Virus record (IMG/VR): IMGVR_UViG_3300046010_006354
Coordinates: 1-25,312 of that record
DNA: 25,312 nt
From: a virus
Direction: 5' to 3' (one strand)
Below, one piece after another: positions 3,188 through 24,605 of the stretch. A model generated the notes under the pieces. It saw only the letters and a program-made list of their open reading frames with translations. It was not told where the DNA came from and searched no databases. Each line of letters opens with the position of its first letter. The stretch's first letter is position 1. Position numbers and translations under genes: made by a program.

Positions 3188-4284
3188 GTAAACAACAATA
3201 CAATCTAAAAACAAAAACAAATTATCTTACACGCAAAATGTTTTTGGATCCCGAAGGCCCGGTAACCATTCAACGGTTTGAAGAAGTTAAGTACAATAAG
3301 ATTCAAAAATTAGAGCAAACTGCCCGAGGTTTCTTTTGGGTGCCTGAAGAAATTAGTCTTACTAAAGACGCACAAGATTTTAAAGATGCAAGTGATACAG
3401 TAAAACATATTTTTACTAGTAATCTATTAAGACAGACAGCATTGGATAGTTTGCAGGGTCGTGGACCCAGTCAAATTTTTACACCGGTTATATCATTGCC
3501 TGAATTAGAAGCCTTAGTATATAACTGGACATTCTTTGAAACTAACATACACAGTCGCAGTTATAGTCATATCATTCGTAATATCTATAATGTACCTAAA
3601 GAAGTATTCAACACTATTCACGATACAAAAGAAATTGTAGATATGGCAAGTAGTGTTGGGAAATATTATGATAGGTTACACCAAATTAACTGTGCAGCAG
3701 AACTAGATGGTCACATTGCAGAAGAAGATCATATTAAAGCAATCTATCTAGCTCTGCACGCCAGTTATGCATTAGAGGCATTCCGATTCATGGTGTCGTT
3801 CGCTACAAGCCTAGCAATGGTAGAGAACAAAATCTTTATCGGTAATGGTAATATTATCAGTCTCATTTTACAAGACGAACTGCTGCATAAAGAATGGACT
3901 GCTTTTTTAATTAATCAAGTAGTCAAAGAAGATTCAAGATTTGCTCAGGCCAAGCAGGAATGCGAAGCAGAAGTTTATCAAATTTATATGGATGTAATTA
4001 GAGAAGAAAAAGAGTGGGCTGATTACTTGTTCAAATTTGGTCCTGTAATAGGGTTGAATGCACAAATTCTTAAAGATTTTGTAGATTATACTGCCTTTCA
4101 CGCATTAAAAGAGATTGGTATCAAGTATAATCAATCAGCACCCAAAACTACTCCTATACCGTGGTTCAATAAACACAGCGATACAAGCAAAAAACAAACT
4201 GCGTTACAGGAAAATGAAAGTACTAATTACATTATTGGTGTTATGAGTGACCAGCTTAATTATGATGAATTACCACAATTATAA
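3184..4284 (+). CDS. nrdB: Ribonucleoside-diphosphate reductase, class Ia, beta (small) subunit
   Basis: Houses the diiron-tyrosyl radical cofactor that starts catalysis in NrdA. At 366 residues it has the usual length (E. coli 376) and aligns throughout. Metal ligands: Asp88 (ALDSLQGR), Glu119 and His123 (FFETNIHSRSY), Glu198 (YALEAFRF), Glu232 and His235 (QDELLHKEW). The radical tyrosine is Tyr127. The first Glu and His are separated by three residues (ETNIH), whereas E. coli has two (ETIH), so one residue is inserted in the ligand helix. The acidic tail NYDELPQL matches the peptide that docks on NrdA. The start overlaps the upstream stop as ATGA. A glutaredoxin gene follows after 14 bases. 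Confidence 0.96.
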   Translation: MSKQQYNLKTKTNYLTRKMFLDPEGPVTIQRFEEVKYNKIQKLEQTARGFFWVPEEISLTKDAQDFKDASDTVKHIFTSNLLRQTALDSLQGRGPSQIFTPVISLPELEALVYNWTFFETNIHSRSYSHIIRNIYNVPKEVFNTIHDTKEIVDMASSVGKYYDRLHQINCAAELDGHIAEEDHIKAIYLALHASYALEAFRFMVSFATSLAMVENKIFIGNGNIISLILQDELLHKEWTAFLINQVVKEDSRFAQAKQECEAEVYQIYMDVIREEKEWADYLFKFGPVIGLNAQILKDFVDYTAFHALKEIGIKYNQSAPKTTPIPWFNKHSDTSKKQTALQENESTNYIIGVMSDQLNYDELPQL

Positions 4285-10026: not shown

Positions 10027-11127
10027 ATGAGTTATTTATTTACAAGCGAAAGCGTTAGTGAAGGTCATCCTGATAAGGTAGCTGATGCTATTAGTGATGC
10101 GATTCTTGATTTAATGATGGAGCACAGAGATCCTTCATTAAGATGTGCATGTGAAACACTTGTCACTACAAACAAGGTTGTAGTTGCAGGCGAGTTTAAA
10201 GGTACTTTACATCCTTTACATGTCGATAGCGCAGTTCGCAAAGTTGTAAAACAAATTGGATATGAGCAAGAAGGATTTGATTGGCGAAAACTTACTGTAG
10301 ATAATCTACTACACGGGCAAAGTGCAGATATTGCACTTGGTACTGACAGTTTTGGTGCAGGTGATCAAGGCTTGATGTTTGGGTATGCATGTAATGAAAC
10401 TTCAGCATATATGCCAAGTGCAATATATTGGAGTCACCGTATTGTAGAAAAATTAACAGAACTTAGAAAAAACGGCGTAATGTCATGTCTAGGTCCAGAT
10501 GCAAAAAGTCAGGTAACCTTTGAATATGATGAAAATAACAAACCACTAAGAATTGCTAAGGTAGTTTGTTCAACACAACATACAGAAGATACTGAAATTA
10601 ATGCATTACGAAAGGCTGTTGAAGGCGTAATTCGTGCTTTACTACCACCGAACTATATAGATAATGATACTCAATTTTTTATTAATCCTACTGGTCGTTT
10701 TGTTATTGGTGGTCCCGATGGCGATACTGGTCTCACTGGAAGAAAAATTATTGTCGATACTTATGGGGGCTATAGTCCTCACGGTGGCGGCGCTTTTAGT
10801 GGTAAAGATCCTACTAAAGTCGATAGGTCAGCCGCTTATATGATGCGCTATATTGCTAAGAATATTGTAGCAAGTGGTCGTGCAGATTGGGCTACATGTC
10901 AAATTAGTTATGCTATTGGATTAAAAGATCCTATGAGTTTTTACATAGAATGTGAGGACAAAGCACTAGCAAGAGACTTAACAAATTTAATTCCAAAAGT
11001 GGTTGATCTTACCCCTAAAGGAATTATTGATAGATTTGATTTATTTCAACCAATTTATAGTAAGACAACAAACTATGGTCATTTCGGTAAACCTGATTTG
11101 CCATGGGAAAAGATAGACTTATTTTAA
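10027..11127 (+). CDS. metK: S-adenosylmethionine synthetase
   Basis: Makes S-adenosylmethionine from methionine and ATP. The 366 residues cover the three-domain MetK fold; the E. coli enzyme has 384. Signatures are SEGHPDKVADAISDAILD (His14, Asp16, Lys17), GAGDQGLMFGYACNET, GGPDGDTGLTGRKIIVDTYGG and HGGGAFSGKDPTKVDRSAAY, which hold the phosphate- and metal-binding residues. The flexible loop before GAGDQG is shortened (GTDSF versus about nine residues in E. coli) and the C-terminal helix is missing. An AAGGAGAG ribosome site precedes the ATG. It opens a gene block. A SAM supply could serve the methyltransferases nearby (13995-15215 and possibly 24622-25312) or DNA modification. The complete set of catalytic motifs suggests an active enzyme. 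Confidence 0.95.
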   Translation: MSYLFTSESVSEGHPDKVADAISDAILDLMMEHRDPSLRCACETLVTTNKVVVAGEFKGTLHPLHVDSAVRKVVKQIGYEQEGFDWRKLTVDNLLHGQSADIALGTDSFGAGDQGLMFGYACNETSAYMPSAIYWSHRIVEKLTELRKNGVMSCLGPDAKSQVTFEYDENNKPLRIAKVVCSTQHTEDTEINALRKAVEGVIRALLPPNYIDNDTQFFINPTGRFVIGGPDGDTGLTGRKIIVDTYGGYSPHGGGAFSGKDPTKVDRSAAYMMRYIAKNIVASGRADWATCQISYAIGLKDPMSFYIECEDKALARDLTNLIPKVVDLTPKGIIDRFDLFQPIYSKTTNYGHFGKPDLPWEKIDLF

Positions 11128-11615
11128 TGGATGAAGATAAAAGCAATCTTGCCAAAGGTAGAGATAGCTTTGATGCTACAATAGGCAACAACCTCGTCCA
11201 ATTTTTTAATAAAAACATTACCCCCTACCCTACTGAGGTAGGGGCTCCCAAATTTGACCTTGTTCCTGTAACAAAACAAAAGGACATAATGGTCAATGTT
11301 GCACGATTACATGCTCAACAAGAGTATGATAGAATTATGCAACTTGTTGAAGTATTACAAAAACAAGCGCAAGAAATTAAGCGTAGGCTTGATCTCACTA
11401 ATATGGTAAATCAAGCTAAATATGATTTTCAGACCTATCATGGACAATTTTATTGGTTAGTATTTGATCATAAAAAAAATTTTACGAGACTTACATTAAT
11501 GGGTCCTAAAGATTGGTCAACTGGAAAACCAGAAGAATATGAATACATATGTAGAGTAAAGTGGTTGGGTGATTATACTTGGTTAGAAGTAGACAATGAA
11601 GGAAATCCGATATGA
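11127..11615 (+). CDS. DUF2452-like protein of unknown function
   Basis: A 162-residue protein. I chose the ATG at 11127, which shares one base with the metK stop (TAATG); an in-frame ATG at 11103 would overlap metK by 25 bases and add eight unlikely residues. A helical region (about 62-90) rich in Gln, Glu and Arg is followed by AKYDFQTYHGQFYWLVFDH and RLTLMGPKDW, a pattern I associate with DUF2452 (aromatic beta strands followed by a '-P-x-x-W' motif). The function of that family is unknown. The first part contains a GC-rich perfect hairpin in the coding sequence (11222-11244). Confidence 0.6.
   Translation: MDEDKSNLAKGRDSFDATIGNNLVQFFNKNITPYPTEVGAPKFDLVPVTKQKDIMVNVARLHAQQEYDRIMQLVEVLQKQAQEIKRRLDLTNMVNQAKYDFQTYHGQFYWLVFDHKKNFTRLTLMGPKDWSTGKPEEYEYICRVKWLGDYTWLEVDNEGNPI
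11222..11244 (+). repeat. GC-rich perfect inverted repeat inside a coding region
   Basis: CCCCTACC (11222-11229) and GGTAGGGG (11237-11244) are exact reverse complements separated by seven bases. An alternative, CCTAC/GTAGG with a TGAG loop, fits within the same stretch. It falls about 95 bases into the DUF2452-like gene and encodes ITPYPTEVGAP. No T-run follows, so it is not a standard terminator. Confidence 0.7.
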
Positions 11616-12157
11616 TATCTAAAAGTCCTGCTAGAGGAACTTTTCAACAAGAAAGTTCAAAAAAGAAACTTCTTGATCCTACTAAAAGTGAGGAAGAAAG
11701 ACAATCCGCCATTGACCTTTTAGAATTATATTCCTCTTGGGATGCTACAAGAAATGAGCAGGAAAACGATCCCAAATGGCAAAAAAATAATTTGGAGTAT
11801 AACCTGCGTTCTACTGGTTGGATTTTAGAAAAAGTTCGTAGTAGCGACAAATATGCACAAAATTTATACGCTGCCATGTGCAACAGAGACTTTACAAAAA
11901 ATGATGTTTGGCCTATACTAATAGAACAAAAATGGAGCTGCTCATGGAGACACGCAGGCGGAATTATTGCTGACATGAGACAAGAAGGTGATTACATTGA
12001 TTGGTATTGTTCAGGAATAGGCGACGGATTGGGTAACGGAGACAAGACCGGGGAAAAGGGATATGTGCCTGAGGGTGTTGTAACAGATGAGATTCGTGAG
12101 GACTTATTTAAATTAGGCTGGATTGTTTTAGATGATGAGGATAATTTAGATGTATAA
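11612..12157 (+). CDS. Conserved-looking phage protein of unknown function
   Basis: A 181-residue soluble protein that overlaps the previous gene by ATGA. The first 35 residues are charged and probably disordered. The rest is rich in Trp (DPKWQKN, STGWILEK, NDVWPILIEQKWSCSWRHAGG). The segment SWRHAGGIIADMR followed by GDYIDWYCSGIGDG, and VVTDEIREDLFKLGW near the end, look like conserved blocks. No catalytic signature, membrane span or signal peptide is visible. It sits between a DUF2452-like gene and the Fe-S genes, which does not define its role. Confidence 0.6.
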   Translation: MISKSPARGTFQQESSKKKLLDPTKSEEERQSAIDLLELYSSWDATRNEQENDPKWQKNNLEYNLRSTGWILEKVRSSDKYAQNLYAAMCNRDFTKNDVWPILIEQKWSCSWRHAGGIIADMRQEGDYIDWYCSGIGDGLGNGDKTGEKGYVPEGVVTDEIREDLFKLGWIVLDDEDNLDV

Positions 12158-12311
12158 ATATCTTGTGTGGGTTAGAATTAATCCATATCAAACAGCAAAT
12201 ACTTATGTGTATGCTAACAATGATTATGAAGCAAAAATGTTAGCAGAAGCACAATATGGTGTAGGGAACGTTCTTAACTATACGAGGGTACACGAAGATG
12301 GCATACAGTGA
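12150..12311 (+). CDS. Very small phage protein (53 residues)
   Basis: A short frame between two genes, overlapping the previous one by 8 bases and iscU by 14. The product begins MYKYLVWVRINPYQTANTYV and continues YANNDYEAKMLAEAQYGVGN before ending at TGA. It reads like a compact beta-alpha-beta domain and resembles the short 'V-x-A-x-x-x-x-x-A-K-x-x-A-E-A-Q-Y-G' proteins of T4-like marine phages. It fills a gap that would otherwise be the only large one in this block. No ribosome site is obvious, so translation is probably coupled to the upstream gene. Function unknown. Confidence 0.6.
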   Translation: MYKYLVWVRINPYQTANTYVYANNDYEAKMLAEAQYGVGNVLNYTRVHEDGIQ

Positions 12312-12693
12312 AAAGGTAATTGATCATTACGAAAATCCAAGAAATGTTGGTAGTTTTGGTAAGGATGATGAAGATGTTGGAACAGGTATGGTTGGTGCAC
12401 CTGCATGCGGTGATGTTATGAAACTGCAAATAAAAGTAAATCCAAATACGGGGTTAATAGAAGATGCGAAATTTAAGACATATGGGTGCGGGTCAGCAAT
12501 TGCTAGCTCTAGTCTTGTCACGGAGTGGGTTAAAGGAAAATCCCTCAACGAGGCAGCGACAATTAGAAATACACAAATCGCGGAAGAACTCGCCCTCCCC
12601 CCAGTCAAAATCCATTGTTCAATCTTGGCCGAAGATGCGATAAAGGCTGCTATAGATGACTATAGAAGTAAACATCAAATCGCCGTGCAATAA
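12298..12693 (+). CDS. iscU: Fe-S cluster assembly scaffold IscU
   Basis: IscU is the scaffold on which Fe-S clusters are built with cysteine desulfurase IscS before transfer by the HscA/HscB chaperones. This 131-residue protein has the normal length and starts MAYSEKVIDHYENPRNVGSF like bacterial IscU. The cluster ligands are present: Cys37 and Asp39 (PACGD), Cys64 (TYGCGSAIASSS), His106 and Cys107. The chaperone-recognition motif LPPVK is intact (residues 100-104), so host HscA could act on it. A GAGG site precedes the ATG. Part of the gene (12541-12600) is about 53% GC by hand count, well above its neighbours, suggesting recent acquisition from a host. It overlaps the DUF1289 gene by 38 bases. 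Confidence 0.95.
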   Translation: MAYSEKVIDHYENPRNVGSFGKDDEDVGTGMVGAPACGDVMKLQIKVNPNTGLIEDAKFKTYGCGSAIASSSLVTEWVKGKSLNEAATIRNTQIAEELALPPVKIHCSILAEDAIKAAIDDYRSKHQIAVQ

Positions 12694-12838
12694 TATATGT
12701 AAATTGAATAGTGATTATGTTTGTATAGGATGTAAGAGGACTATTGATGAAATATCAAGTTGGTCCTCTTATACCAATTTACAACGACAACAAATAATCG
12801 ATAGGCTTAACAATGAGCAACGAGCAAACAAAAATTAA
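12656..12838 (+). CDS. DUF1289-family small Cys-motif protein
   Basis: A 60-residue protein with four cysteines arranged as PC-N-N-IC (Cys11, Cys15) and VCIGCKRT (Cys23, Cys26), followed by IDEISSWSSYTNLQRQQIIDRL. This is the layout of DUF1289 proteins (short proteobacterial proteins with CxxxC, CxGCxRT and a 'DEI-x-x-W' helix). The four cysteines could hold a metal or Fe-S cluster, but the family's function is not established. It overlaps iscU by 38 bases and the next gene by 26. The pairing with IscU raises the idea of a client or partner, which is inference. Confidence 0.8.
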   Translation: MTIEVNIKSPCNNICKLNSDYVCIGCKRTIDEISSWSSYTNLQRQQIIDRLNNEQRANKN

Positions 12839-13130
12839 AACTTCAAAACGCCGTCACCGCGATGAAAATGCAGTAAAACGGCAAGTACGCATAGCAAAAC
12901 AAAATGGATTACATTTTAATGATAAATTAATTAAAGAACCTCATAGATTAGAAAAACACCATGCTATGGATTGTGGAGATCCCGGATGTATTTTATGTGG
13001 TAATCCCAGACGAAATAAAATGTTTAAAACTAAAGATAAATTAACAGCACAAGAACGAAGAATGTTTCAGGATGCAGATACCCCCAATGATAAACATAGT
13101 AATGGACTGCCACCTGCAGATGATAAATGA
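12813..13130 (+). CDS. Small basic protein with Cys/His motif, unknown function
   Basis: A 105-residue, strongly basic protein. The N-terminal third is rich in Lys and Arg (KTSKRRHRDENAVKRQVRIAK). The centre reads PHRLEKHHAMDCGDPGCILC followed by GNPRRNK, where three cysteines and nearby histidines could bind zinc. The segment KLTAQERRMFQD follows and the tail is disordered. It may bind nucleic acid, but that is only suggested by charge and the Cys/His cluster. The start overlaps the preceding gene by 26 bases and the end overlaps the next by ATGA. Confidence 0.6.
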   Translation: MSNEQTKIKTSKRRHRDENAVKRQVRIAKQNGLHFNDKLIKEPHRLEKHHAMDCGDPGCILCGNPRRNKMFKTKDKLTAQERRMFQDADTPNDKHSNGLPPADDK

Positions 13131-14029
13131 AAGTATTGTTACTTGGCGGAAATGGTTATATAGGATCAAAATATTTTAGAAATTGTAAATTTACAATTCA
13201 AAGTGTAGATATTTGTTTATTTAATAAAAATTTGAATTACTCTTATCCAGTTAATTATGATTTTTTAGACATAAGTAATTTTGATGTAATAGTTTGTTTA
13301 GCAGGGCACAGTAGTGTTCCTATGTGTGAACACAGCCCCGAAATAAGTTGGGTTAATAATGTCACATATTTTAAAAATCTTTGTCAAAAATTAAAACATA
13401 ATCAAAAATTAATTTATGCTTCAAGTGCTAGCGTATATGGAACATCTGCCGGAGTTTCTACTGAACAGTCACAAATAAACTTTAATGTGTTAAATCACTA
13501 TGATCTTCAAAAAATAACTATAGATTTAATTGCCAATAAATATATTGCCGAGGGTAAAAATATAATTGGATTAAGATTTGGCACTGTTAATGGTGCCAGT
13601 CCTAATACTAGAAGTGATTTGATGATTAATTCTATGGTTATTTCTGCTATTAACAACGGGATTGTTAATGTAAAAAATTCTCATATAAGGCGTGCAATTT
13701 TGGGTATTAATGATTTATGCAACGCTTTAGATATCTGTATAGAAAAATCTGTAAAACCTGGACAGTATAATCTTTCATCTTTTAATAGTACAGTAAATGA
13801 AATAGCACACCAAGTTTCAGAAATTACAGGTGCTAAAATTGTTACTTTGCCTAATGACAAATTAGCATACGATTTTGAGTTGAGTACAGACAAGTTTTCA
13901 GAAGAAACTGGTTATACTTTTGTAGATACAATATCTTATTTAATTACAGACTTAAAAAATCAAATGCATAAACTTAATTTTGATGTGAGAGACAATGACA
14001 GATTCTTTAAACTATACTATACTCAATAA
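13127..14029 (+). CDS. NAD-dependent sugar epimerase/dehydratase (extended SDR)
   Basis: A 300-residue Rossmann enzyme that acts on nucleotide sugars. The dinucleotide-binding motif GGNGYIG is at residues 7-13. YASSASVYG (97-105) carries the catalytic Ser/Thr region, and Y125-D-L-Q-K129 is the catalytic Tyr-x-x-x-Lys pair. RFGTVNGAS corresponds to the substrate-binding segment. The length fits the family, and it could be an epimerase, 4,6-dehydratase or reductase; the substrate cannot be read from sequence. It is the first of three sugar genes (epimerase, C-methyltransferase, glycosyltransferase) and overlaps the following gene by 35 bases. Confidence 0.85.
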   Translation: MKVLLLGGNGYIGSKYFRNCKFTIQSVDICLFNKNLNYSYPVNYDFLDISNFDVIVCLAGHSSVPMCEHSPEISWVNNVTYFKNLCQKLKHNQKLIYASSASVYGTSAGVSTEQSQINFNVLNHYDLQKITIDLIANKYIAEGKNIIGLRFGTVNGASPNTRSDLMINSMVISAINNGIVNVKNSHIRRAILGINDLCNALDICIEKSVKPGQYNLSSFNSTVNEIAHQVSEITGAKIVTLPNDKLAYDFELSTDKFSEETGYTFVDTISYLITDLKNQMHKLNFDVRDNDRFFKLYYTQ

Positions 14030-15215
14030 TTGTTTATGTTGCGGTAGTACAAATCTAACAAAAGTTTTAGATTTAAAAGATCAACCTCTTGCCAATTCAT
14101 ATGTTGAAAACATTGATAATACAGAAAATTATTATCCATTAGCACTAAACTATTGTAATGACTGTACACATTTACAATTAACAGTAGGAGTTGATCCTGA
14201 CTTATTATTTAAAAATTATCTTTATGTAAGTGGTACAACTAAAACATTGCGAGACTATTTTCAGCGTTTTGTTAATATAGTTCAAAATCATATGCCTTAT
14301 ACGGGTCCATATCATGTGTTGGACATTGCATGTAATGATGGATCACAATTGGATGCATTTAAAGCACAAGGGCATCATACATATGGAATTGATCCTGCTG
14401 AAAATTTACACAAATTAAGTAGCATAAACCACAAAGTTATCTGTGACTACTTCACTAAAGAATCTGTAGAAAAATTAGGAGTTAGTAATTTTGATGTTAT
14501 TATAGGGCAAAATGTATTTGCACATAATACATATCCTAAAGAGTTTTTACAATTATGTTATGATAAACTTAATTCAAATGGACGATTGTATATACAAACA
14601 AGTCAGGCTGATATGGTAAAATATGGTCAGTTTGATACAATCTATCATGAACATATTTCTTTCTTTAATATCAAGTCTATGGCAACATTAGCCAATAGTG
14701 TAAATTTTTATTTAGAAGATGTTTTTAAAACCGACATACATGGTACAAGTTATGTTTTTGTTTTAACGAAAGATATTAATTACGACAACACAAAAATTTG
14801 TATCGAAAAAGAACCTAACCAAACACTTGAGAGTGTTAAAGAATTTGCTGATAAAGCAATTAGTGTGGTAACTAAACTTAAAGAAGAATTATCATTATTT
14901 AAATTTTGTTATACAGTTGGATATGGTGCTGCAGCCAAAGGAAATACTCTTTTAAATTTTGGAGAAATAGACTTTGATTACATTGTTGATGATAACCCTC
15001 TAAAAGTGGGGCTTTACACACCCGGAAGAAAAATAAAAATAGTGTCTTTGGATGAAATGGTTAAAATTGCAGATGATAAATCTGTAGTTTGGGTACCGTT
15101 ATCTTGGAATTTTTTTGATGAGATACAAAAAAGAATCAAAGACAAATATAGCCATCCAACTGCTTTTGTTAAATACTTTCCGTCAATGCAAGTAATATTG
15201 GAACCAAACGAATGA
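13995..15215 (+). CDS. SAM-dependent sugar C-methyltransferase-like protein
   Basis: A 406-residue protein laid out like NDP-hexose C-methyltransferases. An N-terminal zinc-binding domain has C13-L-C-C16 and C54-N-D-C57. The SAM-binding domain shows HVLDIACNDGSQLDAF (motif I, about 107-122) and YGIDPAEN. GQNVFAHN and YIQTSQADM correspond to later motifs, and YHEHISFFN is a typical His-rich active-site segment. The C-terminal third (VGYGAAAKGNTLLNFG, then DYIVDDNPLKVGLYTPG) is the accessory Rossmann-like domain of this family. It probably methylates a keto-sugar made by the upstream SDR. It starts 35 bases inside that gene and is coupled by ATGA to the glycosyltransferase. Confidence 0.85.
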   Translation: MTDSLNYTILNNCLCCGSTNLTKVLDLKDQPLANSYVENIDNTENYYPLALNYCNDCTHLQLTVGVDPDLLFKNYLYVSGTTKTLRDYFQRFVNIVQNHMPYTGPYHVLDIACNDGSQLDAFKAQGHHTYGIDPAENLHKLSSINHKVICDYFTKESVEKLGVSNFDVIIGQNVFAHNTYPKEFLQLCYDKLNSNGRLYIQTSQADMVKYGQFDTIYHEHISFFNIKSMATLANSVNFYLEDVFKTDIHGTSYVFVLTKDINYDNTKICIEKEPNQTLESVKEFADKAISVVTKLKEELSLFKFCYTVGYGAAAKGNTLLNFGEIDFDYIVDDNPLKVGLYTPGRKIKIVSLDEMVKIADDKSVVWVPLSWNFFDEIQKRIKDKYSHPTAFVKYFPSMQVILEPNE

Positions 15216-15952
15216 AAACTGTAATTACACATTTTTATAATGAAGAATATTTATTACCGTGGTGGTTAGAACACCATAAAAAACTTTTTGATTTTGGCGT
15301 GCTTATTGATTACCATAGTACAGACCGATCTGTAGAAATCTGTAAAGAAATCTGCCCTCATTGGCAAGTTGTTAAATCAATGCACACACAGTTTGATAGT
15401 GCCGCATGCGATTATGAAATAATGTTTTATGAAAATCAACTTAGTGGTTGGAGAATAGCACTCACTACAACAGAATTTTTAGTTGGTAATGTTGATTTAC
15501 TTGCTCATAATTTACCTAACAAACAACAGCATATTATACCCGGTATAAGATTTACAAAATGGGATCCAATGGGATCGTTGGATAAAAACAAGCCATTGTG
15601 GGAACAAATACACACTGGAATAAATTATTACGAAAATCCTACCGCACACCAAGGCAGAAGTTTTCACAATTTTAGTTTTTTAGAGTATCCAGTGGGTAGG
15701 CATTACTGGCCACCTACAACAGAAGCAGCAATTATATTTCACTATGCTAATTGTTTAGTTGGTGCTCCTATGTTAAAACGAAGATTGCAAATTCAGCATA
15801 AAATATCCGATAGAGATAGAGAAAAATTAATAGGAAATCATCATTTTGTTGATAACGGGGGTTTAAATTTTACTAACCTTTATATCATGCACCGCGATTA
15901 CATTTCTATCGGAGAAACAGATTGTAGTGATTTAATGGCAAAAGTTTTATAA
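15212..15952 (+). CDS. Glycosyltransferase family 2-like protein
   Basis: A 246-residue protein starting MKTVITHFYNEEYLLPWWLE, then HHKKLFDFGVLIDYHSTDRS. The N-E-E-x-x-L-P-W-W start and D-Y-x-S-x-D-x-S motif are those of short GT2-type transferases (a nucleotide-sugar-binding half with an Asp-x-x-Asp-like site). TTEFLVGNVDLL and several His/Trp segments (RHYWPPTTEAAIIFHYAN) follow. There is no membrane anchor, so it is probably cytosolic. With the preceding epimerase and methyltransferase it likely attaches a modified sugar to a phage or cell-surface acceptor. It is the last gene before the Pho-box gap. Confidence 0.75.
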   Translation: MKTVITHFYNEEYLLPWWLEHHKKLFDFGVLIDYHSTDRSVEICKEICPHWQVVKSMHTQFDSAACDYEIMFYENQLSGWRIALTTTEFLVGNVDLLAHNLPNKQQHIIPGIRFTKWDPMGSLDKNKPLWEQIHTGINYYENPTAHQGRSFHNFSFLEYPVGRHYWPPTTEAAIIFHYANCLVGAPMLKRRLQIQHKISDRDREKLIGNHHFVDNGGLNFTNLYIMHRDYISIGETDCSDLMAKVL

Positions 15953-15954
15953 CA

Positions 15955-15999
15955 TTGTCATCAAATTGTAATAATTTTGTAGTACAATTTCTGTAAATA
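15955..15999 (+). promoter_or_regulatory. Pho-box-like PhoB site and promoter upstream of pstS
   Basis: Three heptamers spaced exactly 11 bases apart, TTGTCAT (15955), TTGTAAT (15966) and TTGTAGT (15977), are separated by four-base AT-rich spacers. This is the direct-repeat geometry of a PhoB-bound Pho box (consensus near CTGTCAT, four bases, CTGTCAC). The last heptamer ends ten bases before TAAATA (15994-15999), the distance expected between a Pho box and its -10. The TAAATA also fits the late-promoter core seen elsewhere here, so it may serve both uses. The pstS ATG is 26 bases further on. Confidence 0.65.
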
Positions 16000-16025
16000 C
16001 TAGTGTTCAACACAAGGAGAAAAGT

Positions 16026-17018
16026 ATGAACAAAATATTCGCTATGTTATTAGCGTTTGTGACAATTACATCACACGCACAGACAATTAATGGAGCCGGG
16101 GCAACTTTCCCGGCCCCACTTTATTCTAAATGGGCTGAAGCCTATAATAAAGAAACAGGAGTAAGACTTAATTATCAGAGTATCGGCAGCGGTGCCGGTA
16201 TTAGACAAATCGAAGGTAAAACAGTTACCTTCGGTGCAAGTGACATGCCACTCAAAGATGATAAATTAGCAAGTTTGGGAGCGACACAGTTTCCTACTGC
16301 CATCGGAGGAGTGGTTCCAATTATTAATATGAAGGATATCAAGCCAGGCGAAATGAAGTTGACTGGTCCAGTTTTAGCAGAAATTTATTTAGGTAAAATT
16401 AAAAAATGGAACGATCCTGCAATTATTAAACTAAACCCCACATTGAAACTGCCCGATCAAGATATCATGGTTGTCCGTAGAGCAGACGGTAGTGGTACTA
16501 CTTTTATTTGGACTAACTACCTAAGTAAAGTAAGCAAAGAATTTAAAGAAGCAATAGGAGAAGGTACTGCTGTTAACTGGCGAGTAGGAGCAGGCGGTAA
16601 GGGTAATGAAGGTGTTGCACAAATGGTTCGCCAATTACCAGGTTCATTGGGTTATGTTGAATATGCATATGTTAAACAAACTAAAATGAATTGGGTACAA
16701 GTGCAAAATCGTGACGGTGTTTGGGTCGCCCCAGATGATGAAACATTTAAAGCTGCTGCTGCAAATGCTACTTGGGATAAAACATTTTATCAAATACTAA
16801 CGGATCAGCCGGGTAAAAATAGTTGGCCAATCACAGGTGCAACTTTTATCATTATGTATTTAAACAATGGTAATAATTCTAAAGATGCACAAGAAGCATT
16901 GAAATTCTTTAGATGGGCATTTGCTAAAGGTGACAAAATGGCAGAGGATTTAGATTATGTTCCTTTGCCAGATTCTGTAGTTGCGTTAGTTGAAAAAGAA
17001 ATAAGTAAGATAAAATAA
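16026..17018 (+). CDS. pstS: Periplasmic phosphate-binding protein PstS
   Basis: Binds phosphate in the periplasm and delivers it to the host PstCAB transporter. The 330 residues include a signal peptide (MNKIFAMLLAFVTITSHA, cleavage after SHA). The mature protein begins QTINGAGATFPAP and follows E. coli PstS closely. The phosphate-binding elements are present: GAGATFPAP, SIGSGAGIRQIEG, GASDMPL, and VVRRADGSGTTFIW. The ending DLDYVPLPDSVV is also typical. The ATG follows a strong AAGGAGA. It stands alone between a Pho-box-like promoter and an intrinsic terminator, so it is a separate unit. Phage pstS genes are known in marine cyanophages, where host PhoB/R activates them under phosphate stress. 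Confidence 0.97.
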   Translation: MNKIFAMLLAFVTITSHAQTINGAGATFPAPLYSKWAEAYNKETGVRLNYQSIGSGAGIRQIEGKTVTFGASDMPLKDDKLASLGATQFPTAIGGVVPIINMKDIKPGEMKLTGPVLAEIYLGKIKKWNDPAIIKLNPTLKLPDQDIMVVRRADGSGTTFIWTNYLSKVSKEFKEAIGEGTAVNWRVGAGGKGNEGVAQMVRQLPGSLGYVEYAYVKQTKMNWVQVQNRDGVWVAPDDETFKAAAANATWDKTFYQILTDQPGKNSWPITGATFIIMYLNNGNNSKDAQEALKFFRWAFAKGDKMAEDLDYVPLPDSVVALVEKEISKIK

Positions 17019-17031
17019 TAAAACTATCTAG

Positions 17032-17056
17032 AAAAAGCCGCTTAGCGGCTTTTTTT
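17032..17056 (+). terminator. Intrinsic terminator after pstS
   Basis: AAAAAGCCGC (17032-17041), TTA loop, GCGGCTTTTT (17045-17054), then more T to 17056. A ten-pair stem with a GC-rich core and a T-run of seven makes a textbook Rho-independent terminator, 14 bases after the pstS stop. Confidence 0.95.
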
Positions 17057-17083
17057 ATGGGTAAATGTAGCCTTCATAAGTAA

Positions 17084-17091
17084 TATAAATA
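17084..17091 (+). promoter_or_regulatory. Late-promoter-like TATAAATA before ahpC
   Basis: TATAAATA followed by G is an exact match to the T4 late -10 sequence. It lies after the pstS terminator and 52 bases before the ahpC ATG, so it is a natural start for the 17144-20814 operon. Confidence 0.6.
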
Positions 17092-17143
17092 GCTATGAGT
17101 ATATAAACTCAAATACAGACTATAACACACAAGGAGAACCAAT

Positions 17144-17704
17144 ATGAAAACAGTCGGCGATAAATTGACAGCATTTACAATTACTGGCGTAAAGCCAGGT
17201 CAACCAGAAGATGCATTCTTCCCAATCACAGAAAAAAGTTTTGAAGGCAAATGGAAAGTAATTGTATACTATCCAAAAGACTTCACATTTGTATGCCCTA
17301 CAGAAATTGTAGCATATGATAAGTTATTTAAAGATTTTGAGGATCGTGATGCAGTTCTATTAACAGGTAGTACAGATAACGAGTTCTGTAAAGTTGCTTG
17401 GCAAAAGCATCATCCAGACCTACGCGGTATTCGTCATATTCAATTCGCAGATACTGCCCGTCATCAAACAGGTGAAGAACGTGGAAGTGTCAGCTTGATT
17501 GAGCAACTAGGTGTATTCTATGCGCCTGCTGGTGCAGCACTACGCGCCACTTTTATCATTGACCCGGACAATGTTATTCAGCATGTTACAGTTAACAATT
17601 TAAATGTTGGCCGTAGTCCAGAAGAAACGTTGCGTGTTTTAGACGCTTGCCAAACAGGAGAACTATGTCCATGTAGTCGTCCTATAGGTGGAGACACATT
17701 GTAA
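17144..17704 (+). CDS. ahpC: Alkyl hydroperoxide reductase AhpC (peroxiredoxin, AhpD-linked type)
   Basis: A thiol peroxidase that reduces hydrogen peroxide, organic peroxides and peroxynitrite. The 186 residues have the normal length. The peroxidatic Cys51 sits in YPKDFTFVCPTEI, and RATFIIDPDNVIQHV is the conserved Arg/strand region. The C-terminus has DACQTGELCPCSRP with Cys169, Cys175 and Cys177; the LCxC pair is the arrangement of M. tuberculosis AhpC (ELCACNW), the type recycled by AhpD rather than AhpF. Only the ahpD gene at 20257 is found, which agrees. An AAGGAGAACC site precedes the ATG, and a terminator and a TATAAATA motif separate it from pstS. The two HldE-half genes follow. Confidence 0.95.
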   Translation: MKTVGDKLTAFTITGVKPGQPEDAFFPITEKSFEGKWKVIVYYPKDFTFVCPTEIVAYDKLFKDFEDRDAVLLTGSTDNEFCKVAWQKHHPDLRGIRHIQFADTARHQTGEERGSVSLIEQLGVFYAPAGAALRATFIIDPDNVIQHVTVNNLNVGRSPEETLRVLDACQTGELCPCSRPIGGDTL

Positions 17705-23836: not shown

Positions 23837-23870
23837 AAGCCCCTGGGAAACTAAAAAGTCCCAGGGGTTT
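23837..23870 (+). terminator. Strong hairpin, terminator-like
   Basis: AAGCCCCTGGGA (23837-23848) pairs with TCCCAGGGGTTT (23859-23870) over 12 bases with one G-T pair and a ten-base loop. The T-run after it is only three, so termination strength is uncertain. It separates the first short transcript from the second promoter. Confidence 0.6.
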
Positions 23871-23888
23871 CCAATTACATAGTTATAT

Positions 23889-23917
23889 TTGACAAAAAAT
23901 GGAGAATAAAGTAGAAT
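23889..23917 (+). promoter_or_regulatory. Sigma70-type promoter upstream of the tRNA region
   Basis: A perfect TTGACA (23889-23894), a 17-base spacer and TAGAAT (23912-23917) match 11 of 12 consensus positions. Transcription would begin near 23924 and read through the structured segment and the four tRNAs. It overlaps the first codons of the 53-residue frame, so that frame would lack its start on this transcript. Confidence 0.6.
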
Positions 23918-24060
23918 TCAAAACTTACAAATTTACAGATTGGTCGAGGCACACTTTTTTGACACCAGAACAACGAAAACAGTTGTTGACTGAAAAAATT
24001 GAACGTGCTAAGATGCAATATCTTGCTAATCAAAAATGTCCGGCTAGGGCATTTAGATGA
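23899..24060 (+). CDS. Small protein of 53 residues, unknown function
   Basis: Starts MENKVEFKTYKFTDWSRHTF, continues LTPEQRKQLLTEKIERAKMQ and ends KCPARAFR. The composition (helical, charged, PEQRKQ-type turn) looks like a real small phage protein. No ribosome site is visible before the ATG, and a sigma70-type promoter overlaps its first six codons. It would have to be translated from a transcript starting upstream, or the promoter is spurious. No family is recognised. Confidence 0.45.
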   Translation: MENKVEFKTYKFTDWSRHTFLTPEQRKQLLTEKIERAKMQYLANQKCPARAFR

Positions 24061-24282
24061 TTAGAAGCGTGACAAGGCAACGAGGGCCGGCACACAACGC
24101 TATATAAAATGTGACGAACGGGCGGACTGTAGGATGGAGTCTCTTTTGTGAGACAAAAAATTACAGGCTAGTGTATAACACTAGCATAGCGTAGAAATAC
24201 GCTATTCTATAATATATTGAAGAACAACGCCCTTGGAACACGAAACTAAGACCAGCACTCAGTATATTATAGAATAGTGTAT
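24061..24282 (+). ncRNA. Structured non-coding segment upstream of the tRNAs
   Basis: This stretch has no convincing ORF on either strand but dense inverted repeats: AGCGT/ACGCT (24066-24070 with 24097-24101); GTCTC/GAGAC (24139-24154); GCTAGTGT/ACACTAGC with a three-base loop (24167-24185); ATAGCGTA/TACGCTAT closed by a GAAA tetraloop (24186-24205); and an 18-pair stem (24202-24219 with 24260-24277, one T-G pair) enclosing 40 bases. The last three helices abut, the fourth and fifth sharing four bases. It ends six bases before tRNA-Gln. It may be a structured RNA or a processing leader; its class is unknown. Confidence 0.5.
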
Positions 24283-24357
24283 AGGGGGTTCGCCAAGTGG
24301 TAAGGCATCTGATTTTGATTCAGACATTCGGTGGTTCGATCCCATCACCCTCTGCCA
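24283..24357 (+). tRNA. tRNA-Gln (anticodon TTG)
   Basis: A 75-base cloverleaf. Acceptor AGGGGGT pairs with ACCCTCT with one G-T pair; D stem GCC/GGC; anticodon stem TCTGA/TCAGA with loop TTTTGAT; T stem GGTGG/CCATC with loop TTCGATC. Discriminator G and encoded CCA follow. Reads CAA, an AT-rich-favoured Gln codon. Confidence 0.95.
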
Positions 24358-24365
24358 AACAATTT

Positions 24366-24440
24366 GCCTCATTAGCTCAGTGGTAGAGCACCGTCTTGAT
24401 AAGGCGTAGGTCCGTGGATCGTTCCCACGATGAGGCACCA
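24366..24440 (+). tRNA. tRNA-Ile (anticodon GAT)
   Basis: A 75-base cloverleaf eight bases after tRNA-Gln. Acceptor GCCTCAT/ATGAGGC is perfect; D stem GCTC/GAGC; anticodon loop TTGATAA; T stem CGTGG/CCACG. Encoded CCA is present. Two oddities: pair 27-43 is C-T, and the T loop is ATCGTTC instead of the usual TTCGA-type, so positions 54 and 58 are A and T rather than T and A. Confidence 0.88.
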
Positions 24441-24447
24441 AACAATT

Positions 24448-24523
24448 GGGGGATTAGCTCATCTGGGAGAGCGCCTGTTTTGCAAGCAGGAGGTGATCGG
24501 TTCGAGTCCGATATCTTCCACCA
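24448..24523 (+). tRNA. tRNA-Ala (anticodon TGC)
   Basis: A 76-base cloverleaf. Acceptor GGGGGAT/ATCTTCC contains two G-T pairs; D arm GCTC/GAGC; anticodon stem CCTGT/GCAGG with loop TTTGCAA; T stem ATCGG/CCGAT with loop TTCGAGT. Discriminator A and encoded CCA follow. It is seven bases from tRNA-Ile. Confidence 0.95.
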
Positions 24524-24529
24524 ATATAA

Positions 24530-24605
24530 CTCCGTATAGCGTAATCTGGTAGCGTTCCTGGTTTGGGGCCAGGCGGTTGGGGTTCAAATCCTCATACGGA
24601 GACCA
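24530..24605 (+). tRNA. tRNA-Pro (anticodon TGG)
   Basis: A 76-base cloverleaf. Acceptor CTCCGTA/TACGGAG is perfect; anticodon stem CCTGG/CCAGG with loop TTTGGGG; the T loop begins TTCAAAT. Discriminator A and encoded CCA are present. It ends the cluster; a protein gene begins 17 bases later. Confidence 0.94.

Follow-up and report, generated by a model that had tools for sequence, protein, structure and literature searches.

A pseudoknotted RNA of a new family at the head of phage tRNA arrays

Results

Identification of the RNA directly before a tRNA array

Comparative analysis of a stretch of viral DNA (IMG/VR record IMGVR_UViG_3300046010_006354, 25,312 nucleotides, hereafter the window) revealed an RNA directly 5' of an array of four tRNA genes that almost certainly represents a genuine new structured RNA family. 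Its existence and structure are near certain from the alignments described below, and homologues were found in more than 100 phage loci of IMG/VR. We give roughly an even chance to the reading that this family consists of structured leader RNAs with which phage tRNA-array transcripts begin and which act in cis, and the RNA is called the leader here.

The plus strand of the window was without genes from position 24061, the stop of a small open reading frame lying at 24060. The segment 24061-24282 folded with -67.8 kcal/mol, compared with -42.5 ± 4.1 kcal/mol in dinucleotide shuffles (z -6.2, 0/200). An initial annotation had noticed about 220 bases without a gene here, with dense RNA structure beside phage tRNAs and three abutting hairpins, and this description was borne out by the fold and by the homologues, which also head tRNA arrays. 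Its eight-pair hairpin with a three-base loop corresponds to P7 and its eight-pair hairpin with a GAAA tetraloop to P8 (Table 1). The third stem, given as 18 pairs enclosing 40 bases and sharing four bases with P8, does exist and does overlap P8, but it has 24 bp, encloses 38 nt and shares 8 nt (24198-24205). The more important part was absent from that description, namely a pseudoknotted core that occupies the first ~100 nt (24066-24166) and was not visible to minimum-free-energy folding.

Table 1. Features of the leader locus in the window
Feature	Position	Strand	Remarks
ORF1, 44 aa	23678..23812	+	conserved in L004; related short ORFs precede the terminator in other loci
Strong G+C hairpin, then TTTCC	23837..23870	+	at the position that an intrinsic terminator takes before the leaders of other phages
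Sigma70-type promoter, TTGACA-17-TAGAAT	23889..23917	+	11/12
ORF2, 53 aa, family LTxEQxxKLIxxKxERA	23899..24060	+	stop 5 nt before P1
Leader core, covariance model R1 match	24055..24173	+	92.3 bits; window among the sequences R1 was built from
P1, 5' strand	24066..24070	+	partner 24097-24101
P2 hairpin, GGC-AACGAGG-GCC	24076..24088	+	heptaloop AACGNGR conserved
Loop L2, final base	24085	+	predicted contact with 24119; covarying G-C/A-U, second pseudoknot
P3, 5' strand	24091..24096	+	CACA in CACACA, register ambiguous here; by inspection and family-wide test
P1, 3' strand	24097..24101	+	within the P3 loop, giving the P1 x P3 pseudoknot
P3, 3' strand, UGUG	24110..24113	+	by inspection and family-wide test
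Junction GAACGGGCGG	24116..24125	+	conserved
P5, 5' strand, CUGUA	24127..24131	+	
GGAUGGA	24132..24138	+	conserved; internal loop between P5 and P6
P6 hairpin, GUCUC-UUUUGU-GAGAC	24139..24154	+	100% paired; two-sided changes in 4/5 pairs
P5, 3' strand, UACAG	24162..24166	+	
P7 hairpin	24167..24185	+	24167-24174/24178-24185, 8 bp, 3-nt loop
P8 hairpin, AUAGCGUA-GAAA-UACGCUAU	24186..24205	+	24186-24193/24198-24205, 8 bp; 3' strand common to P9
P9, 5' arm	24197..24220	+	24-bp long stem; pairs with 24259-24282, 38 nt enclosed
P9, 3' arm	24259..24282	+	last bases AUAGUGUA copy the P8 5' strand AUAGCGUA, strand exchange possible; end flush with the tRNA-Gln start at 24283
tRNA array, Gln(UUG), Ile(GAU), Ala(UGC), Pro(UGG)	24283..24605	+	

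Architecture and covariation of the core

The elements of the core (about 115 nt) followed the order P1a, P2 hairpin with the loop AACGNGR, P3a, P1b, an A-rich loop and P3b, and then RAAYGGGCGG, P5a, GGAUGRA, the P6 hairpin, AAAAAU and P5b. P1 and P3 crossed each other to form an H-type pseudoknot. P3 was perfect over at least 4 bp in 55 of 63 sequences, whereas swapping of the partners gave a mean of 12.5 and a maximum of 22 in 2000 shuffles; its count in alignment A1 (42%) was too low because P3, together with the P1 of the window, was misplaced by the sequence-only alignment. P2, P5 and P6 were paired in 96-100% of the cells of A1, with many two-sided changes. In A1, 88.3% of the cells were paired (68.7% when shuffled, at most 46.4% when slid), and the covariation was 0.553 (0.189 when shuffled). 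Since kinship among the sequences inflates the covariation statistics (effective number 47.5 of 63), weight was put on the slid controls and on a second sample. In alignment A3, whose sequences were selected through the ORF2 protein, P2, P5 and a pair between L2 and the junction were 97.7% paired against 66.9%, and the covariation was 0.819, against 0.224 when shuffled and at most 0.142 when slid. The initial annotation had made covariation among homologues the test of its proposal, and such covariation was found in both alignments. The closing pair of P5 occurred as C-G, A-U, U-A and G-C in A3; one side of it was held constant in A1 by the DNA search patterns.

Outside the helices, the strongest coupling in A1 linked the last base of L2 with the base preceding GGGCGG (GC 38, AT 23, GA 2), and the same pair was GC in 21 and AU in 5 sequences of A3 with zero exceptions. 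These two positions are read from their covariation as a second, loop-to-junction contact. G-U cells numbered 51 in P6, with 0 A-C cells, and 96 in the long stems described below, compared with 5 A-C cells; changes to G-U without changes to A-C indicate that the functional molecule is the plus-strand RNA. The same bias, together with an orientation fixed with transcription, makes an element acting at the DNA level (a replication origin, recombination or packaging site) extremely improbable, although a single copy per genome and large inverted repeats would suit one. The G+C skew was unchanged at the leader in two records, and a replication origin was rejected on this basis. Also rejected was a short open reading frame starting from the conserved AUG in GGAUG, whose frame was not kept open as judged by eye, and the changes in P6 were compensatory.

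Homologues and their link to tRNA arrays

An IMG/VR locus found through a relative of the small ORF (L004) carried the same RNA before a tRNA-Gln gene, with compensatory changes visible. A scan of viral contigs with four DNA patterns from the most conserved stretch, none of them involving tRNA, yielded 68 distinct cores. Downstream tRNAs on the same strand were present for 62 of these and tRNAs on the opposite strand for none, and the remaining six lost their sequence within 52-318 nt. The first tRNA was of many kinds, and the distance from the core to the first recognised tRNA ranged from about 50 to more than 1000 nt. A search with a single ORF2 protein gave 46 loci, and the leader came right after ORF2 in all 46 (one clipped by the contig end); tRNAs were found in 43, while the other three stopped at most 264 nt past the core. 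Because 27 of the 37 distinct leaders displayed from this search were invisible to the DNA patterns, the patterns cannot have created the association with tRNAs or the conservation of the core.

Covariance model R1 recovered the homologues and, in addition, a divergent subgroup with a different P6 loop, which also preceded tRNAs where the sequence permitted; the GGCCUGUAGG type was the commoner leader type. Exactly one R1 match was obtained in each of 24 phage records (55-524 kb), which contained 4-61 tRNA matches. Two records were examined over almost their full length, and the leader preceded 23 of 24 tRNAs in one and 18 of 19 in the other; tRNAs elsewhere in leader-carrying genomes had no leader. 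Throughout the more than 100 loci, wherever they contained enough sequence, the leader stood at the head of the array and never inside or after it, which favours a cis role.

Genes resembling tRNA-Tyr(GUA) and undetected by ARAGORN were seen after the leader in L039, L054, L162 and L067, and in place of the usual D arm they seem to have a pairing of the CCCC/GGGG type that spans the anticodon arm.

Database searches and comparison with known systems

The Rfam scan proposed in the initial annotation (Rfam 15 cmscan, gathering and permissive modes) matched only the tRNAs in the window and no leader family. At curated thresholds the leader had no Rfam match in the window, in L004 or in ten additional homologues, and the sub-threshold matches in the window and L004 were at chance level. 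Searches with blastn using the element, a second element of L004 (see below) and two other cores gave nothing real among 50,697 phage records and nothing among plasmid records. A scan of genome contigs of 84,980 species, with a pattern (A after GGCGG) that covers only part of the leader family, returned 65 stretches with no tRNAs and at most 19 bits in the covariance model, which look like chance. No leader was found by the covariance model with strict filters in 200 genomes of the order Burkholderiales, and no match was obtained in Xanthomonas phage X1 or Stenotrophomonas phage Moby, close cultured relatives by ribonucleotide reductase. The leader phages are uncultured, and many of their records exceed 100 kb. 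No description of the leader was found in the literature available as open-licence papers. The leader was counted as new because no tested family or described system contains it; its broad role as leader RNA may yet turn out to be of a known kind.

As for possible hosts, a tmRNA gene (ARAGORN tmRNA*) was located upstream of ORF2 and the leader in L249 (65-481), L250 (65-481) and L255 (732-1158). The tmRNA of L255 matched the permuted tmRNA and beta_tmRNA families of Rfam, and this betaproteobacterial type hints, as a lead only, at betaproteobacterial hosts. Translations from 10027-17704 of the window, assigned by eye, included SAM synthetase, an IscU-like scaffold, PstS-like and AhpC-like proteins, all host-like metabolic genes.

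The initial annotation had raised GOLLD and ROOL, structured phage and prophage RNAs often found near tRNA islands (PMC12286853). The leader resembles them in being a structured phage RNA near tRNAs, but GOLLD and ROOL are much larger (many GOLLD RNAs exceed 800 nt), form cages and are not fixed at the array head, whereas the leader has a core of about 115 nt with a variable stem, always heads the array and is usually accompanied by a partner ORF. With no Rfam covariance-model match in gathering or E-value modes, and no ornate RNA of several hundred nucleotides, the relation to GOLLD and ROOL was dropped.

Theta ribozymes are HDV-like, pseudoknotted RNAs beside phage tRNAs with a proposed role in processing, and the tRNA-associated ones cleave within 5 nt of the tRNA 3' end (PMC10879173). 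They are about 56 nt long, occur at tRNA 3' ends, mostly in gut phages, and have another topology, whereas the leader lies upstream of the array. A theta or HDV-like identity was rejected on two grounds, the helix order P1a-P2-P3a-P1b-P3b, which is unlike the nested double pseudoknot of HDV (P1 P2 P3 P1.1 P4), and the constant position upstream of the array instead of at a tRNA 3' end. Any self-cleaving ribozyme maturing the array appears very improbable, even though the leader has unpaired bases that do not vary and two contacts resembling pseudoknots, and theta ribozymes do occur beside phage tRNAs (PMC10879173). No ribozyme family was matched, the helix order and position differ as described, and the first recognised tRNA lies at widely differing distances.

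In HK022 put, Bacillus EAR and the lambda N/nut system, a structured RNA lies close to the 5' end of the transcript, and a small protein encoded in the same operon may or may not take part. The leader would similarly lie close to where a long transcript begins, as suggested by promoters before about a third of the loci; however, it precedes tRNAs rather than protein genes, and no family was matched. Its likeness to boxA was hardly higher than in shuffles (7.5 versus 7.0 of 12). The resemblance to put, EAR and N/nut antitermination is a functional speculation drawn from position only. ToxI of type III toxin-antitoxin systems is likewise a pseudoknot RNA beside a small gene, but the leader has a single core without tandem repeats and no ToxN-like endoribonuclease. 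This identity was rejected, since both the RNA repeats and a ToxN/CptN/TenpN gene are absent and ORF2, with ~53 aa, has no Pfam or PHROG family.

Small ORFs and transcription signals around the leader

The usual order of the locus was ORF1 (about 45 aa), terminator, ORF2, leader and array. ORF2 (~50 aa) usually ended 0-17 nt before the leader. It was found by pattern in 37 of 58 loci and was missing in about a third; in some phages without ORF2, the terminator was located about 10 nt before P1. A profile of ORF2 (alignment A2) matched 16 of the 24 phage records, once each and in 15 directly before the leader, and the match in G005 was partial and not directly before it. Changes at codon positions 1-3 of ORF2 numbered 144, 113 and 198, a third-position bias that suggests a modest coding signal. 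AlphaFold predicted one confident helix (residues 23-46), and the model had no Foldseek match; no Pfam or PHROG family was found for the protein. The ORF2 proteins form a new small protein family.

A terminator pattern was present upstream of the leader in 41 of 58 loci. The hairpin of the window in this position has too short a T run to match the pattern. Upstream of 19 of 62 leaders, sigma70-type promoters with a 17-nt spacer were found, compared with 2.05 in shuffles, and those of L164 and its relatives ended just before P1. In the window, the ATG of ORF2 lies inside the promoter spacer, so that transcripts from that promoter could not start translation there. A second promoter was detected between the leader and the first tRNA in 6 of 49 phages. 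In five of these (L027, L047, L050, L056 and L061), only 4-8 nt separate the end of the sigma70 -10 element from that tRNA, and the transcript would therefore start near the tRNA 5' end. No strong intrinsic terminators were seen within the one array scanned (L079).

The long stem and the exchange between P8 and P9

The core was followed by one or more stems up to the first tRNA, and in nearly every homologue one of them had 15-25 bp. In the homologues' sequence 3' of these long stems no U tract was found, and a reading of the long stem as the stem of an intrinsic terminator or attenuator was rejected on this ground. Long stems alone would fit an ordinary untranslated spacer with processing hairpins, as in any tRNA precursor, but such a spacer would leave both the pseudoknotted, sequence-conserved core and the strict linkage to ORF2 unexplained, and it is a highly improbable explanation.

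In the clade of the window, the 3' strand of P8 doubled as the base of P9, and the 3' arm of P9 repeated the 5' strand of P8. The P8 5', P8 3' and P9 3' strands were AUAGCGUA/UACGCUAU/AUAGUGUA in the window, AUAGCAAA/UUUGCUAU/AUAGUAAA in L011, AUAGCAUC/GAUGCUAU/AUAGCAUU in L012 and AUAGUAUC/GAUACUAU/AUAGUAUU in L014. When counted separately over ten sequences, P7 and P8 were 98.1% paired with a covariation of 0.425 (0.178 shuffled), and P9 was 92.6% paired with a covariation of 0.384 (0.159 shuffled). The shared columns covaried in both pairings, so that the alternative forms, which the initial annotation had thought possible, are read as a conserved switch beside tRNA-Gln. The predicted fold contained P7 and P8 when the 3' arm was absent and P9 in the complete RNA; the complete states had -33.8 (P8) and -37.5 kcal/mol (P9), a gap of 3.7 kcal/mol with coaxial stacking left out. 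In the predicted folds, the P8 state leaves 9 nt unpaired ahead of tRNA-Gln, and the stem abuts the tRNA in the P9 state. The choice between the two states may govern 5' processing. The exchange was found only in the clade of the window.

The bistable P8/P9 would suit a regulatory attenuator or riboswitch, with the core as the sensor and with read-through into the array under the control of ORF1, the terminator, ORF2 or a ligand, as would the conserved upstream terminator with its short ORFs and the high conservation of the unpaired AACGNGR, GGGCGG and GGAUG. This explanation is nevertheless unlikely: the terminator is upstream of the core instead of downstream, the long stems have no U tract, and no single regulatory codon run was found by eye in ORF1 or ORF2.

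Several further observations were made on the long stems. As judged by eye, their apical loops are common to phages with different cores, in the manner of cassettes, for example AAGTGGGTTCATCCATG and variants in L046, L064, L076, L154 and L184. Some loops seem to hold tRNA fragments (L059, L175 and L178), and in L164 a protein-coding insertion appears to break the expected long-stem region between the core and the first tRNA. Between its tRNA-Gln and tRNA-Ile (3458-3603), L004 had a second element with a long stem (23 bp, z -7.5), and hairpins AAACACATT...AGTGTGTTT akin to it were seen in other arrays. Long hairpins between all tRNAs were not general, being present in 14 of 78 gaps compared with 16 in shuffles (best of three each).

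Discussion

The position at the head of tRNA arrays and the usual small gene just upstream make the leader look like a new element for the control or processing of viral tRNA production. The leader would act in cis on the array of the same transcript. RNA polymerase would start at the promoter before the leader, and the core would fold first and present a recognition platform. The core might then protect the polymerase from termination while it transcribes kilobases of untranslated tRNAs, or it might set the 5' end and the order of processing; antitermination and processing control are treated together here. The long stem would keep the leader apart from the tRNA and is likely a site for double-strand cutting of the RNase III type. 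In the clade of the window, an exchange of strands in which P8 and the base of P9 compete would decide whether the 9 nt before tRNA-Gln are single-stranded, the state that 5' processing would favour, or locked in a stem that directly abuts the tRNA. ORF2, where present, is a plausible protein partner. We put forward more tentatively that the leader and the adjacent ~50 aa protein form an RNA-protein module commanding the expression or maturation of the whole array, in the clade of the window by strand exchange at the 5' flank of the first tRNA.

Several observations count against the cis-leader reading. The second promoter after the leader in 6 of 49 phages means that the tRNAs there can be made without it, and this weighs most heavily against the cis role being obligatory. 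The tRNAs without a leader elsewhere in the same genomes, the lack of strong terminators in the scanned L079 array, the loci missing ORF2 and the restriction of the P8/P9 exchange to one clade also count against it.

The main rival is a discrete trans-acting noncoding RNA, which would be the first member of the array, freed by tRNA processing and protected at its 3' end by the long stem. It is in keeping with the compact conserved core, the interchangeable structured loops of the long stem, the one copy per genome and the promoters that some tRNAs have of their own after the leader; moreover, the stem in the clade of the window ends 0-9 nt before the tRNA, so that one RNase P cut would free the RNA. 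We consider it rather unlikely, because an RNA that acts in trans would not have to come first every time, yet the leader was never inside or after the array in more than 100 loci, and it has no terminator of its own.

The leader is a new pseudoknotted RNA fold that covaries well and has no relative in Rfam 15. The tRNAs of a large phage can number in the dozens. A conserved RNA at the array head in many phages, usually with a small protein gene, provides a concrete handle on the transcription, maturation and timing of these arrays and can be used as a marker for tRNA-array phages.
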